A model generated the notes under the pieces. That model was not told where the DNA came from, ran no database searches, and worked only from the letters and a program-made list of their open reading frames with translations. The position numbers and the translations under genes were made by a program. A stretch of DNA of 64,000 bases, from contig NZ_JAUSNR010000019.1 in assembly GCF_030656345.1 (NCBI RefSeq), positions 388,796 to 452,795 of the forward strand, given 5' to 3'. Of the stretch, positions 13,409 to 55,779 are shown piece by piece; the first letter of the stretch is position 1, and the number at the start of each line of letters is the position of its first letter. The DNA comes from Pseudotabrizicola sp. (lineage in GTDB: Bacteria > Pseudomonadota > Alphaproteobacteria > Rhodobacterales > Rhodobacteraceae).

Positions 13409-14860
13409 ATGGGAGACGCAGCCTTGGCCACGCAGAAAATGCTCAAATTCGTGACCGTCGCCAAAGAGACGCCCGAAAAGCGCCCGCCTACTTTGCGCAA
13501 TCAGGATTTCCATGAGATTTACCGCGAGTTCGCGACCGAGAAGGCAGCCGAGCAGGCCGGGCGGTGCAGCCAGTGTGGCGTGCCCTATTGCCAGTCGCAT
13601 TGCCCCTTGCACAACAACATTCCCGACTGGCTGCGGCTGACCGCCGAGGGCCGGTTGCAGGAAGCCTATGAGCTGAGCCAGGCCACCAACACCTTTCCCG
13701 AGATCTGCGGCCGCATCTGCCCGCAGGACCGGCTGTGCGAAGGCAATTGCGTGATCGAGCAATCGGGCCATGGCACTGTGACCATCGGTTCGGTCGAGAA
13801 ATACATCACCGATACGGCCTGGGAAAATGGCTGGGTCAAGCCGATAAAACCGGCGGTCGAACGGGCGGAAAGTGTGGCCATCATCGGGGCAGGGCCGGGG
13901 GGTCTTGCCGCCGCCGATGTGCTGCGCCGCCGCGGCTATCAGGTCACGGTGTATGACCGCTATGACCGCGCAGGCGGATTGATGACCTATGGCATCCCCG
14001 GCTTTAAACTCGAAAAACCCGTTGTGATGCAACGGATTGAGCAGCTGGAGCTGGGCGGTGTGCAATTTGTGCTGAACTGCACGGTGGGCGTCGATATCAG
14101 CTTTGATGCGATCCGGGGCCAGCATGATGCGGTGCTGATCGCCACCGGCGTCTACAAATCGCGCGATATCGAGGCCCCCGGCGTGGGTGCCAAAGGCGTG
14201 GTGCGGGCGCTGGATTACCTGACCGCCAGCAACCGCAAAAGCTTTGGCGATGACGTGCCGGAATTCGACTCGGGCGAGCTGAACGCGATGGGCAAGCGCG
14301 TGGTGGTGATCGGCGGCGGTGACACGGCGATGGACTGTGTGCGCACGGCCATTCGGCAGGGGGCGACCTCGGTCAAATGCCTGTATCGCCGTGACCGGGC
14401 CAATATGCCGGGCAGCCAGCGCGAAGTGCAGAACGCCGAAGAAGAAGGCGTTGAATTTGTTTGGCTTTCCGCACCGAAAGGCTTCACTGCCGGAGATGCG
14501 GTCGATGGCGTGATGGTGCAGAAGATGCGCCTTGGTCAGCCGGATTCGACGGGGCGCCAGTCGCCGGAACTGATCGAGGGGGCCGATTATGTCGAACCCG
14601 CCGATCTGGTGGTGCAGGCGCTGGGCTTTGAGCCGGAAGAGATCCCGACGCTGTGGGGCGTGCCTGATCTGGCGGTCACCCGCTGGGGCACCATCAAAGC
14701 CGATTTCCGCACCCATGCGACCAGCCTGCCCGGCGTTTATGCGGCAGGTGACATCGTGCGCGGTGCGAGCCTTGTCGTCTGGGCCATCCGCGACGGGCGC
14801 GAGGCGGCGGATGCGATCATGGGATATCTGGCGCAAAACGGCGTGGTGGCTGCGGAATAA
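13409..14860 (+). CDS. gltD: glutamate synthase small subunit
   Basis: QAGRCSQCGVPYCQSHCPLHNNIPDW, FAD/NAD Rossmann motifs; true start could be TTG 13424 (MATQKMLKFV, SD gggag) or ATG 13439. Confidence 0.94.
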   Translation: MGDAALATQKMLKFVTVAKETPEKRPPTLRNQDFHEIYREFATEKAAEQAGRCSQCGVPYCQSHCPLHNNIPDWLRLTAEGRLQEAYELSQATNTFPEICGRICPQDRLCEGNCVIEQSGHGTVTIGSVEKYITDTAWENGWVKPIKPAVERAESVAIIGAGPGGLAAADVLRRRGYQVTVYDRYDRAGGLMTYGIPGFKLEKPVVMQRIEQLELGGVQFVLNCTVGVDISFDAIRGQHDAVLIATGVYKSRDIEAPGVGAKGVVRALDYLTASNRKSFGDDVPEFDSGELNAMGKRVVVIGGGDTAMDCVRTAIRQGATSVKCLYRRDRANMPGSQREVQNAEEEGVEFVWLSAPKGFTAGDAVDGVMVQKMRLGQPDSTGRQSPELIEGADYVEPADLVVQALGFEPEEIPTLWGVPDLAVTRWGTIKADFRTHATSLPGVYAAGDIVRGASLVVWAIRDGREAADAIMGYLAQNGVVAAE

Positions 14861-14863
14861 TGG

Positions 14864-14913
14864 GTATGGCGGGCGTATGATCTGCGTATGGCAGACGTAT
14901 GGTTTACGTATGG
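14864..14913. repeat. array of five GTATGG-type units with exact 11-bp period (copy A)
   Basis: GTATGG at 14864, GTATGA 14875, GTATGG 14886, 14897, 14908. Confidence 0.85.
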
Positions 14914-14941
14914 CACCCAGTGCAGACGAGAATTTTGGTGC

Positions 14942-14978: not shown

Positions 14979-15764
14979 ATGATGAAACAGCTTTTGATCC
15001 TGGCAGCCCTGTTGCCCGCCCCGGCCTTTGCCGGGGCCTTCACCCCACCCGAGGGCTGCACCACCTACCTGACCGTGCAGGCGCGGCAGTGCCGGGTGTC
15101 GAACCATTACACCTGCAGCGCCGATCCCGAGGGCGACAAGTGGCGCGCCGATTTTGACCAGCAGGGCCCGTTCTTTCTGAGCCGGATCAACCATGAGGCC
15201 GAATGGATCGAAAGCTATGATCTGGGCCAGACCATCATTCGCCAGACGCTGGACCCCAACCCGTCTGACCCGGCGTCATTTTCCGAGCTGCTGGCCAGCG
15301 GCACCGATACCTTTGCCTTCAACCTGAGCCGCGACAATGGTGAGCAGACCCGGGTGAACGGTTTTGACACCCTGACCGGGCGCAGCTTTACCATTGATGG
15401 CGTGACGCTGCAGGAAACCGAATTCGAGTTCACCGAAACCGATCTGACCGGGGTGATCCTGCGCCGGTCGCGGGGGCGTGAATACATTCACCCCGAGATG
15501 CGCATCTTCTTTTCCGGCCCGTCGGAATGGATGGGCCCGGACGGTGAGTTTCTGCCCATGGACGGCAGCCCGGTCGAGTTCATGTTTCCGGGCGAACCCG
15601 GATTCGAGGCCACCGAGCCGCTGTTCGACTGTGACCCGCTGATGACGCAAGCCCCGCGCGAGGCGACGCCGGTTCCGGCGGTGTTCTGGTCGGGCAAGAT
15701 GCCAGAGTTTAGCCGTACCGGACTGCCTGCGCTGTCCGGCGACAATGCCAGCCCAGAGGAGTGA
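14979..15764 (+). CDS. hypothetical secreted protein encoded between gltD and gltB
   Basis: Signal peptide MMKQLLILAALLPAPAFAG; SD ggaggg; ends 4 nt before gltB. Confidence 0.75.
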   Translation: MMKQLLILAALLPAPAFAGAFTPPEGCTTYLTVQARQCRVSNHYTCSADPEGDKWRADFDQQGPFFLSRINHEAEWIESYDLGQTIIRQTLDPNPSDPASFSELLASGTDTFAFNLSRDNGEQTRVNGFDTLTGRSFTIDGVTLQETEFEFTETDLTGVILRRSRGREYIHPEMRIFFSGPSEWMGPDGEFLPMDGSPVEFMFPGEPGFEATEPLFDCDPLMTQAPREATPVPAVFWSGKMPEFSRTGLPALSGDNASPEE

Positions 15765-15767
15765 GCC

Positions 15768-18700
15768 ATGACGATCTATGATGATGCCTGGGTAAAAGCC
15801 GAAGAGACCAAGCGCGCCTTTATGGACGCCAACAGCCTGTACAAATCCGATGACGAGCATTCGTCCTGCGGTGTGGGTCTTGTGGTGGCGATCAGCGGCA
15901 AGCCGAGCCGCAAGGTTGTGCAATCGGGGATCGACGCGCTGAAGGCGATCTGGCACCGGGGCGCGGTGGATGCCGACGGGAAAACCGGCGACGGCGCCGG
16001 TATTCACGTGCAGATTCCGGTCAAGTTCTTTTATGACGTGATCCGCCGCACCGGGCACGAGCCGGACATTCACAAGCTGGTGGCCGTCGGGCAGGTGTTT
16101 CTGCCGCGCACCGATTTTGGCGCGCAGGAGCGGTGCCGCACGATTGTTGAGGCCGAAGTGCTGCGCATGGGGCACTATATCTATGGCTGGCGGCATGTGC
16201 CGGTGGATACCACCGTGCTTGGGGAGAAGGCCAATGCCACCCGGCCCGAGATCGAGCAGATTCTGATCCGCTGTGAAAAGGACATCGATCAGGAACAGTT
16301 CGAGCGTGAGCTGTACATCATCCGCCGCCGGATCGAAAAAGCGGCCATCGCTGCGCAGATTCAGGGTGTGTATCTGTGCAGCCTGTCGTGCCGGTCCATC
16401 ATCTACAAAGGCATGATGCTGGCCGAACAGGTGGCCACCTTCTACCCCGACCTGATGGACGAACGGTTCGAGTCCGCCTTTGCGATCTATCACCAGCGCT
16501 ACAGCACCAACACTTTCCCGCAGTGGTGGCTGGCGCAGCCGTTCCGCATGCTGGCCCATAACGGCGAGATCAACACGCTGAAGGGCAACGTCAACTGGAT
16601 GAAAAGCCACGAGATCCGGATGGCGTCGAACAATTTTGGCGATGCGGCTGAGGATATCAAGCCGATCATCCCGTCGGGCACGTCCGATTCCGGCGCGCTG
16701 GATGCGGTGTTTGAGGTGATGGTACGCTCGGGCCGGTCGGCCCCGATGGCGAAAACCATGCTGGTGCCGGAAGCGTGGTCGAAGACCACCACCGACATGC
16801 CGAAAGCCTGGGCCGATATGTACGCCTATTGCAACGCGGTGATGGAGCCTTGGGACGGGCCTGCCGCGCTGGCGATGACCGATGGCCGCTGGGTCTGCGG
16901 CGGGCTTGACCGCAACGGGTTGCGGCCGATGCGCTATGTGGTGACCGGGGATGGCCTGCTGATCGCCGGGTCCGAGGCGGGCATGGTGCCGGTGGATGAA
17001 ACCACCATCCGCGAAAAGGGCGCACTTGGGCCGGGGCAGATGATTGCCGTCGATATGAAGGCGGGCAAGCTGTACCACGACGCGGCGATGAAGGATAAGC
17101 TGGCCGCGTCGAACCCTTATGGCGAGTGGATCGAAAAGGTCATCGACCTGAACAGCCTGCTGCACGATGTGCCGGAACGGGCGCAGTTCGACGGGGCTGA
17201 TCTGCGCCGCCGCCAGATTGCCGCCGGGTTCACGGTGGAAGAGCTTGAGCAGGTTCTGGCGCCGATGGCTGAAGACGGCAAGGAAATGATTGCCAGCATG
17301 GGCGATGATACGCCGGCGGCGGTGTTGTCCAGCATCTACCGCCCGCTGTCGCATTTCTTCCGGCAGAACTTCAGCCAGGTGACGAACCCGCCGATTGACA
17401 GCCTGCGCGAAAGCCGGGTGATGAGCCTGAAGACGCGGTTCGGCAACCTCAAGAACGTGTTGGACGAAAACTCCAGCCAGACCGAGATTCTGGTGCTGGA
17501 AAGCCCGTTTGTGGCGAATTCCGAATTTGACGTGATGTGCAAACATTTCGGCGAGCAGGTGGCCTATATCGACTGCAGCTTCCCGGTGACGGCGGGGCTG
17601 GACGATCTGCGGCAGGGGCTGGAGCGGATAAGGGCCGAGGCGGAGGATGCCGTGCGCTCGGGTGCCAGCCATCTGGTGCTGACCGACGAACATCAGGGGC
17701 CTGACAAGGTGCCGATGCCGATGATCCTGGCCACCAGTGCCGTGCACAGCTGGCTGACGCGCAAGGGGCTGCGGACGTTTTGTTCGGTCAACGTGCGGTC
17801 TGCCGAATGTATCGACCCGCATTACTTTGCGGTGCTGATCGGCTGTGGCGCGACCACGGTGAACGCCTATCTGGCGCAGGACAGCATTGCCGACCGGATT
17901 GCCCGTGGCTTGCTGGATGGCAGCCTGACCGATGCGATGCGTCGGTATCGTGATGCGATCAACGGCGGGTTGCTGAAGATCATGTCGAAGATGGGGATCT
18001 CTGTGATCTCCAGCTATCGCGGGGGCCTCAACTTTGAGGCGGTGGGGTTGAGCCGCGCCATGGTGGCGGAGTATTTCCCCGGCATGCACAGCCGGATTTC
18101 GGGCATCGGCCTGACCGGGATTGAGCAGAAGCTGGAAGAGGTTCACGCCAAGGGCTGGCTGGGCGGCGCGGATGTGCTGCCGATCGGCGGGTTCTACAAG
18201 GCGCGGCGGTCGGGTGAGAAGCACGCCTGGGAAGCGCAGACCATGCACATGCTGCAGGCGGCCTGTGACCGGGCCAGCTTTGACATCTGGAAGCAGTATA
18301 CGGCGGCGATGCGGGCCAATCCGCCGATCCACATCCGCGATCTGCTCGACATCAAGCCCTTGGGCAAGCCGGTGCCGATTGAGGAGGTGGAGAGCATCAC
18401 CTCTATCCGCAAGCGGTTTGTCACGCCGGGCATGAGCCTCGGGGCCCTCGGGCCAGAGGCGCACAAAACCCTGAACGTCGCGATGAACCGCATCGGTGCC
18501 AAATCCGACAGCGGCGAAGGCGGCGAAGATCCGGCGCATTTCCTGCCCGAAGCCAATGGCGACAACCCATCGGCCAAGATCAAACAGGTGGCTTCCGGGC
18601 GCTTTGGCGTCACCGCGGAATATCTGAACGCCTGTGAAGAGCTGGAAATCAAGGTTGCCCAAGGGGCGAAACCGGGTGAGGGCGGGCAGCTGCCGGGGAT

Positions 18701-20306
18701 GAAAGTCACCGAGCTGATCGCGCGGTTGCGGCATTCGACCAAGGGGGTGACGCTGATCTCGCCGCCGCCGCACCATGATATCTATTCCATCGAAGACCTT
18801 GCGCAGCTGATCTATGACCTCAAGCAGATCAACCCGCGCGCCAAGGTGACGGTGAAGCTGGTGTCGTCGTCGGGCGTGGGCACGATTGCGGCGGGGGTGG
18901 CCAAGGCCAAGGCCGATATCATCCTGATTTCCGGCCACAATGGCGGCACCGGGGCATCGCCCGGCACATCGATCAAATATGCCGGCCTGCCGTGGGAGAT
19001 GGGCCTGACCGAGGCGCATCAGGTGCTGAGCATGAACAACCTGCGCGACCGGGTGACCTTGCGCACCGACGGCGGGTTGCGCACGGGCCGCGATGTGGTG
19101 ATGGCGGCGATGATGGGGGCCGAGGAATACGGCATCGGCACCGCCGCGCTGATCGCGATGGGCTGCATCATGGTGCGGCAGTGCCAGTCCAACACCTGCC
19201 CGGTGGGGGTCTGCACGCAAAGCGAAGAGCTGCGCAAGAAGTTCACCGGCACGGCGGACAAGGTGGTGAACCTGATCACCTTTTACGCGCAGGAAGTGCG
19301 CGAGCTGCTGGCCGGAATCGGCGCGCGGTCCCTGGATGAGATCATCGGGCGGGCCGATCTGCTGACTCAGGTCAGTCGTGGTGCGGCGCATCTGGATGAT
19401 CTGGACCTCAACCCGCTTTTGATCACCGTCGATGGCGCGAACCGGATCACCTATGATCGTACGCGCCCGCGCAATGCGGTGCCTGATACGCTGGATGCCG
19501 AGATCATCCGTGATGGTGCCCGCTTCTTTGAAGAGGGCGAGAAGATGCAGCTGTCCTATGCGGTGCGCAACACCCATCGGACCATCGGCACGCGCGCATC
19601 GAGCCATATCGTGCGCAAGTTCGGGATGCGCAACAGCTTGCAGCCCGACCATCTGACGGTGAAGCTGACCGGCAATGCCGGGCAGTCGCTGGGGGCGTTT
19701 GCGGCGCGCGGGCTGAAGCTGGAGGTGATGGGCGACGCCAATGACTATGTGGGCAAGGGCTTGTCGGGGGGCACCATTGTGGTGCGGCCGATGATGTCGT
19801 CGCCGCTGGACGCGTCGGAAAACACCATCATCGGCAATACCGTGCTGTACGGGGCGACCGATGGCTATCTTTACGCGTCAGGCCGCGCCGGAGAGCGGTT
19901 TGCCGTGCGCAACTCGGGTGCTAAGGTGGTGGTTGAAGGCTGCGGGTCGAACGGGTGTGAATACATGACCGGCGGTGTGGCGGTGATTCTGGGCCGGATC
20001 GGCGCGAATTTTGGGGCCGGGATGACCGGGGGCATGGCCTATCTGTACGACCCGGATGGCGTGGCCGAAGATTTCATCAACCTGGAATCGCTGGTCACCT
20101 GTGCTGTCAGCCACCCGCATTGGGATGCGCAGCTGCGCAGCCTGATCGAGGCCCATGCGCATGAGACCGGCAGCCGCAAGGCGCGCACGATCCTGTCGAA
20201 CTGGGAGGCAGAGCGCGCCAACTTCCTGCAGGTCTGCCCGACCGAAATGCTGGTGCATCTGCCGCACCCGCTGAGCGATGAGCCGGTGAAGGTTCCGGCG
20301 GAGTAA
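15768..20306 (+). CDS. gltB: glutamate synthase large subunit
   Basis: SSCGVGLVVAISGKPSRKVVQSGIDALKAIWHRGAVDADGKTGDGAG, GQSLGAF C-terminal domain; 1512 aa. Confidence 0.97.
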   Translation: MTIYDDAWVKAEETKRAFMDANSLYKSDDEHSSCGVGLVVAISGKPSRKVVQSGIDALKAIWHRGAVDADGKTGDGAGIHVQIPVKFFYDVIRRTGHEPDIHKLVAVGQVFLPRTDFGAQERCRTIVEAEVLRMGHYIYGWRHVPVDTTVLGEKANATRPEIEQILIRCEKDIDQEQFERELYIIRRRIEKAAIAAQIQGVYLCSLSCRSIIYKGMMLAEQVATFYPDLMDERFESAFAIYHQRYSTNTFPQWWLAQPFRMLAHNGEINTLKGNVNWMKSHEIRMASNNFGDAAEDIKPIIPSGTSDSGALDAVFEVMVRSGRSAPMAKTMLVPEAWSKTTTDMPKAWADMYAYCNAVMEPWDGPAALAMTDGRWVCGGLDRNGLRPMRYVVTGDGLLIAGSEAGMVPVDETTIREKGALGPGQMIAVDMKAGKLYHDAAMKDKLAASNPYGEWIEKVIDLNSLLHDVPERAQFDGADLRRRQIAAGFTVEELEQVLAPMAEDGKEMIASMGDDTPAAVLSSIYRPLSHFFRQNFSQVTNPPIDSLRESRVMSLKTRFGNLKNVLDENSSQTEILVLESPFVANSEFDVMCKHFGEQVAYIDCSFPVTAGLDDLRQGLERIRAEAEDAVRSGASHLVLTDEHQGPDKVPMPMILATSAVHSWLTRKGLRTFCSVNVRSAECIDPHYFAVLIGCGATTVNAYLAQDSIADRIARGLLDGSLTDAMRRYRDAINGGLLKIMSKMGISVISSYRGGLNFEAVGLSRAMVAEYFPGMHSRISGIGLTGIEQKLEEVHAKGWLGGADVLPIGGFYKARRSGEKHAWEAQTMHMLQAACDRASFDIWKQYTAAMRANPPIHIRDLLDIKPLGKPVPIEEVESITSIRKRFVTPGMSLGALGPEAHKTLNVAMNRIGAKSDSGEGGEDPAHFLPEANGDNPSAKIKQVASGRFGVTAEYLNACEELEIKVAQGAKPGEGGQLPGMKVTELIARLRHSTKGVTLISPPPHHDIYSIEDLAQLIYDLKQINPRAKVTVKLVSSSGVGTIAAGVAKAKADIILISGHNGGTGASPGTSIKYAGLPWEMGLTEAHQVLSMNNLRDRVTLRTDGGLRTGRDVVMAAMMGAEEYGIGTAALIAMGCIMVRQCQSNTCPVGVCTQSEELRKKFTGTADKVVNLITFYAQEVRELLAGIGARSLDEIIGRADLLTQVSRGAAHLDDLDLNPLLITVDGANRITYDRTRPRNAVPDTLDAEIIRDGARFFEEGEKMQLSYAVRNTHRTIGTRASSHIVRKFGMRNSLQPDHLTVKLTGNAGQSLGAFAARGLKLEVMGDANDYVGKGLSGGTIVVRPMMSSPLDASENTIIGNTVLYGATDGYLYASGRAGERFAVRNSGAKVVVEGCGSNGCEYMTGGVAVILGRIGANFGAGMTGGMAYLYDPDGVAEDFINLESLVTCAVSHPHWDAQLRSLIEAHAHETGSRKARTILSNWEAERANFLQVCPTEMLVHLPHPLSDEPVKVPAE

Positions 20307-53125: not shown

Positions 53126-53230
53126 TACATCTCTCGTCAAATGATCCGGCATATAAGCCGAAAGACGGGGGGTCGTGCAAGTGAAGGCTTGATGAAGGCC
53201 CGCAAACCGGGGGAACCGCGTGTTTTGGGG

Positions 53231-53280
53231 GTATGGCGGGCGTCTGGTCTGTGTATGGGAAACGTATGGCTAACGTCATG
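53231..53280. repeat. array of five GTATGG-type units with exact 11-bp period (copy B)
   Basis: GTATGG 53231, GTCTGG 53242, GTATGG 53253, GTATGG 53264, GTCATG 53275; 41/48 identical to copy A. Confidence 0.82.
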
Positions 53281-53324
53281 ACGTTTGTGCGGGCCTTGCA
53301 GCGGCGGGTTTTTGCCCGCGCCTG

Positions 53325-55747: not shown

Positions 55748-55779
55748 CGCGGGTTACGAAGGACGCGGGTTACGAAGGA
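55748..55779 (+). repeat. perfect 16-bp tandem duplication in 5' leader
   Basis: CGCGGGTTACGAAGGA x2 directly upstream of ATG 55786. Confidence 0.95.

Follow-up and report, generated by a model that had tools for sequence, protein, structure and literature searches.

The array downstream of gltD

The window analysed here is a stretch of 64,000 nucleotides (G000:C3:388796-452795) of a Pseudotabrizicola genome from the Rhodobacteraceae (G000, hereafter the home genome). It contains gltD, and four base pairs beyond the stop codon of that gene (TAA, last base 14860) begins a tandem array of 11-bp units, which we call array A; a similar array, B, lies further along the window (Table 1). A first-pass annotation, made from the letters alone, had reported the unit positions, the 11-bp spacing and the match between the two arrays (41 of 48 positions identical, 14862-14909 versus 53229-53276), and all three were reproduced exactly. 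Three consecutive GTMTGR-N5 units occur 5 times in the window versus 0 times in 100 dinucleotide-preserving shuffles, and among unit-to-unit distances of 6 to 19 in the window only 11 is in excess (7 pairs, the others having 0-2).

Two further observations were made in the window. The interval between gltD and gltB holds a 261-aa reading frame (14979-15764) with an apparent N-terminal signal peptide, which is present in Pseudotabrizicola, G172 and G196, and was not found at this site in Donghicola, G138 and G075. At 55748-55779, a 16-bp unit, CGCGGGTTACGAAGGA, is duplicated in perfect tandem.

Table 1. Features of the two arrays, their surroundings and the candidate reader gene (window positions unless a contig is given)
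Feature	Position	Strand	Remarks
Array A, five GTATGR units, 11-bp period	14864..14913	+	Unit starts 14864, 14875, 14886, 14897, 14908
Array A, 5' box	14844..14863	+	From the 28-copy alignment; AAATTCCGG-like in many copies, weak here: GGAATAATGG
Array A, 3' tail AGTGCAG	14919..14929	+	Diverged form of the family tail TGTGCG
Array B, four GTMTGG units, 11-bp period	53231..53269	+	In the pyrF/amn gap; runs antisense to the two genes
Array B, 3' tail GTCATGACGTTTGTGCGG	53275..53292	+	Commonest tail in Pseudotabrizicola
gltD	13409..14860	+	Upstream neighbour of array A; context, outside the element
gltB	15768..20306	+	In the GC-skewed zone that follows array A; context
RHH gene, home genome	G000:C24:321439-321861	-	Outside the window

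A family of arrays at conserved sites

Arrays A and B had been taken for a two-copy family, which proved far too small a number: an initial pattern search of the home genome gave about 28 loci, and our model R1 recovers 29 copies at E <= 1.4e-9, the next match having an E-value of 0.235. The 28 copies that entered the anatomy alignment share a conserved architecture of about 80 bp with end boxes, in which an AT-rich box is followed by usually four GTMTGR-N5 units and then by a tail, this tail being GTCATGACGTKTGTGCGS or one of two variants in Pseudotabrizicola copies. The arrays are polar, and they are intergenic in all copies of the home genome but one.

Two congeners, P. formosa XJSP (G009) and P. 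sediminis DRYC-M-16 (G011), have 29 arrays each, and 28 and 27 of the home sites, respectively, are common to them with relative orientation kept. Array matches are present in 34 of 398 genomes of the family Rhodobacteraceae and, with fuller scoring, other genera turn out to have 62, 40, 21, 8 and 6 copies. The gltD array itself recurs 3-44 bp past the gltD stop in at least six genera (Pseudotabrizicola, including G009 and G011, as well as G002, G138, G075, G172, G196 and two Donghicola species), and its position is independent of the presence of the 261-aa frame between gltD and gltB. An array without further copies and without conservation at gltD would, according to the first-pass annotation, have suggested chance or a one-off duplication; with 29 copies and a gltD site that is kept, the data speak against this. 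In G172, 6 of 20 sampled arrays are syntenic with home arrays, and the orientation is the same in all six. The idea that arrays shift by kilobases between genera was rejected, the gene gap being identical while the gene content differs.

A candidate reader protein

One array, near carB, is conserved in twelve compared genomes and lies in eleven of them directly in front of a small gene encoding a ribbon-helix-helix (RHH) protein (G000, G009, G011, G001, G005, G006, G138, G172, G110, G075, G085). In G196 the carB-side array has no RHH gene, and the RHH gene follows another array; judged by coordinates, an RHH gene lies behind an array in G196, G018, G295, G149, G416 and G130. Seen in a few genera, the neighbours of the RHH locus comprise carB, a thymidine-kinase-like gene and, in some of them, a DEAD-box helicase gene, these names being taken from sequence inspection. 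The RHH protein is present in 30 of 34 array-bearing genomes versus 109 of 364 others (Fisher p 2.5e-11), and the array-bearing genomes in which it was not detected (G084, G217, G256, G396) have one or two weak arrays each.

The home protein matches the Pfam family BrnA_antitoxin (PF14384) at 2e-7, with 31.8 bits for a cut-off of 26.1, and this family, which has the RHH fold, is matched by 10 of 10 aligned members; the AlphaFold model of the protein is poor (pLDDT 62). Because the array lies in front of the RHH gene, the protein probably regulates its own gene. Apart from this locus, a second, shorter BrnA-type RHH gene is found near parS (G000:C3:289159-289320 and G009:C9:114631-114792). Elsewhere in the home genome, at G000:C30:230070-230285, a frame of 214 aa matches DnaA in its DNA-binding domain IV and in no other part (50 bits); a similar frame is present in G006 and absent from G009.

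The same sites in different dialects

Thirty RHH loci were compared. At most of them, an array of four units precedes the RHH protein match by about 120 bp, and lag 11 is the one repeat distance in excess. The unit in these upstream arrays is genome-specific and differs between genera of the Rhodobacteraceae: GTATGG or GTCTGG, GTACAC, ATGCAC, GTCTTG, GTTCATGC and others. G004 and G026 have no GTATGG array at the carB-side locus, where a diverged RHH gene is kept and is preceded by an 11-bp GTRCAC array. Other apparent dialects upstream of RHH genes (TGTCGTG-like, GTCTTG, GTTCATGC, TACAGA) come from G368 (L356), G434 and G365 (L360, L363), G061 (L355) and G216 (L361).

A unit read at the RHH promoter predicts arrays elsewhere in the genome. 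A genome-wide search with ATGCAC gave 84, 95, 36, 27 and 9 matches in five ATGCAC genomes (overlapping matches inside one array being tallied separately), versus 0 in ten control genomes and 1, 4 and 3 in three others, and the reversed pattern gave 0 matches in every ATGCAC genome. Three sampled ATGCAC arrays stand where the home genome has GTATGG arrays, each in the corresponding gap between genes and with its orientation preserved (dnaJ/radC, aminotransferase/sulfotransferase and ABC ATPase/permease, as named from sequence inspection), so the positions persist while the word changes.

The protein changes together with the word. The residue of the RHH strand that precedes V/I/L-T is K wherever the unit is of the TGG/TTG class (13 of 13 typed genomes) and R wherever it is of the CA type (12 of 12), which makes an agreement with unit class in 25 of 25 genomes; moreover, N replaces T in this strand in both GTCTTG genomes, and Q at the strand residue accompanies a third unit. 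The protein tree gives 7 inferred unit-class changes and 7 residue changes, and the well-supported independent pairs are concordant in 4 of 4 cases, these four being the phylogeny-corrected support (p 0.125). RHH proteins contact bases through these strand positions, and the K/R-bearing positions are the predicted DNA-reading residues. Because unit and protein covary, and because the unit predicts the dispersed arrays, we think that all arrays are very probably bound by one dedicated RHH protein. The earlier suggestion of a cooperative DNA-binding platform is supported by the same two facts, together with the RHH gene behind the array.

Spacing and strand asymmetry

The arrays keep a distance from each other, with 0 inter-array gaps under 12 kb in G196 versus 10.0 expected, and G172, the home genome and G009 agree on a minimal spacing, at 16 kb. 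Read on the strand of the array, GC skew is positive at 24, 26 and 27 of 29 arrays in the genomes with 29 copies, at 29 of 30 in five other genera and at 21 of 21 in G196; in the ATGCAC dialect, 18 of 19 distinct arrays lie on the G-richer strand. The skew passes from about 0 upstream to between +0.08 and +0.11 downstream, for about 10 kb, and this step is positive in 46 of 50 arrays from three genera (p 4.5e-10); in G196 and G172 the skew sets in 2-3 kb before the array.

Several explanations were rejected. Third-position and fourfold sites near arrays shift in sense and antisense genes alike, which excludes an artefact of gene orientation, and the shift at fourfold sites is from C to G with no T/A shift, which excludes C-to-T deamination. 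An oriented motif of the KOPS or Chi kind was also discarded, the k-mer skew being a general G-richness in which no single word is prominent. Finally, replichore polarity fits contig C24 (8 of 8), G085 and G018, but fails as a general rule in G196, where it is mixed. On C24 itself, two stretches (G000:C24:200001-240000 and 360001-385000) break the GC-skew pattern of the contig, whose strand bias is consistent elsewhere; they are possibly recently acquired or rearranged islands.

Orthologues whose orientation to the array is flipped have a skew that changes as predicted in 20 of 27 cases (p 0.002). The skew of gltB is 0.239 with an intact array versus 0.023 (p 7e-6, or p 8e-4 if two degenerate arrays are scored as present), whereas that of carB is 0.356 versus 0.228, below significance (p 0.10), and carB skew stays high in Pseudotabrizicola without the array. 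Since the gltB test supports a link to the array and the carB test does so only weakly, what we claim is an association between the arrays and a local GC-skew step, and not a cause.

Comparison with known systems

One of the closest parallels is ParR of plasmid R1, an RHH protein that binds head-to-tail repeats and needs at least two 11-bp repeats; the parC array lies just upstream of the operon it controls, and ParR/parC specificity differs between families (PMC9426499). As in this type II plasmid partition system, we find an RHH protein and tandem direct repeats of about 10-11 bp upstream of its gene, but here the arrays are chromosomal, with 6-62 dispersed copies, the protein matches BrnA_antitoxin, and no actin-like ParM partner was noticed on inspection of the RHH-locus neighbours in a few genera. 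The resemblance to BrnT/BrnA concerns the antitoxin half, the home RHH domain scoring above the PF14384 cut-off, and antitoxins of toxin-antitoxin systems autoregulate their promoters; however, the present protein has longer N- and C-terminal parts and dozens of remote sites, and no BrnT-like toxin gene was recognised by eye beside it at the locus.

Dialects are known from the DNA uptake sequences (DUS) of Neisseriaceae, a dispersed, species-specific genomic word with variants between related species (PMC3630211). Our arrays resemble DUS/ComP in dialect switching, here at kept positions, but a DUS is one word present thousands of times, whereas the arrays have four units each, stand at fixed sites and number in the tens. 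The families that organise chromosomes (matS/MatP, SBS/SlmA, Noc sites, parS/ParB, KOPS/FtsK) also combine tens of dispersed sites with one dedicated protein, and some are polar; their sites are single, short, often palindromic and of conserved sequence, and we know of neither local skew steps nor repeated changes of dialect in them. Operators of the OmpR/PhoB family are 11-bp direct repeats and share the head-to-tail spacing, but the cognate protein here is an RHH protein and not a winged-helix response regulator, and a reader of that type was abandoned once the RHH gene was found. A concerted change of dialect across all sites would recall PRDM9 hotspots.

What the arrays may do

Taken together, we consider it probable that array A is one binding platform of a chromosome-wide, polar system that is read by the RHH protein, switches dialect and serves a directional process at the level of the chromosome. 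The small RHH protein would bind the 11-bp direct repeats, presumably with one dimer per unit, and since the dimers would follow one another head to tail along a single helical face, the bound complex would have a direction; we infer this polar, dimer-per-unit geometry by analogy with ParR of plasmid R1. About 30 such platforms (6 to 62 in other genomes) would be held at fixed intergenic sites in a fixed orientation, and a change of the recognition residues of the RHH protein would be followed by a change of unit across the whole set. The bound complex may then serve the loading, pausing or anchoring of a strand-discriminating machine over about 10 kb. That the process would be directional and chromosomal, rather than confined to the promoter of one gene, is suggested because the skew step is independent of gene direction and replichore, and the fixed orientation, the exclusion distance and the skew step together favour such a role. 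That this is a previously undescribed system, in which an RHH protein reads polar arrays of four 11-bp units, drives or guides a strand-asymmetric process over about 10 kb and has switched dialect concertedly several times within a family, is a more tentative proposal, to which we would give somewhat less than an even chance; searches of the literature on the motif, on local skew with motifs and on GTA packaging sites found no description of such a system.

The main rival is an ordinary regulon. On this view the RHH protein would act as a transcription factor with the arrays as its operators, present at 30-60 promoters, and the skew would be a by-product of gene location. This reading has some appeal, as the RHH fold is common in repressors, the array that precedes the RHH protein match by about 120 bp is in an autoregulatory position and the majority of arrays lie near at least one gene start, but we find it doubtful on several grounds: the orientation of the arrays to their flanking genes is mixed, with 3 convergent gaps, these genes have no shared function, array A stands directly past the gltD stop in all genera compared, and neither a minimal spacing of 12 kb nor a strand-wide skew step would be expected.

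Alternatively, each array could be a polar site at which a DNA-processing machine loads or enters (a helicase/nuclease, or local replication or repair synthesis), and the strand-specific mutagenesis of this machine would leave the downstream skew. The step in sense and antisense genes, the C to G shift without a T/A shift and the behaviour of flipped genes agree with this; nevertheless, no partner machine came to light, the carB test is not significant and in G196 and G172 the skew starts before the array, so that we regard the proposal in this specific form as unlikely.

Two other readings, both raised by the first-pass annotation beside the DNA-binding platform, did not stand as the latter did. 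A mobile repeat of the MITE or REP type, dispersed by a transposase, would account for dispersed, intergenic copies with a conserved architecture and end boxes, but it is very improbable given sites fixed between species and genera (27-28 of 29 common to congeners), the absence of clustering with mutual exclusion within 12 kb, and a unit that changes in concert with the RHH residue; as a recent process, it is refuted by the conservation of sites and orientations. No array copy was found on plasmids or phages, the five viral matches, on contigs mostly AT-richer, resembling simple tandem repeats, and a plasmid or phage origin was dropped. Least probable of all is an RNA element, be it a TRAP-like RNA-binding array or a transcript Rho site, for which the regular spacing and the C-rich complement of the GTATGG dialect could be invoked, but which fits neither the mixed orientation to transcription, nor the lack of a consensus fold among the copies and of any Rfam match above threshold, nor an ATGCAC dialect that is not C-skewed in the same sense.

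Significance

If the chromosome-level reading is right, the arrays would represent an unrecognised layer of chromosome marking in a widespread family of environmental bacteria, and one with a built-in natural experiment, in which one set of sites carries different words and the reader proteins differ at known residues. The system offers a directly testable protein-DNA recognition code for RHH proteins. It also links dispersed binding sites to a local GC-skew step, a signal that is normally attributed to replication alone.
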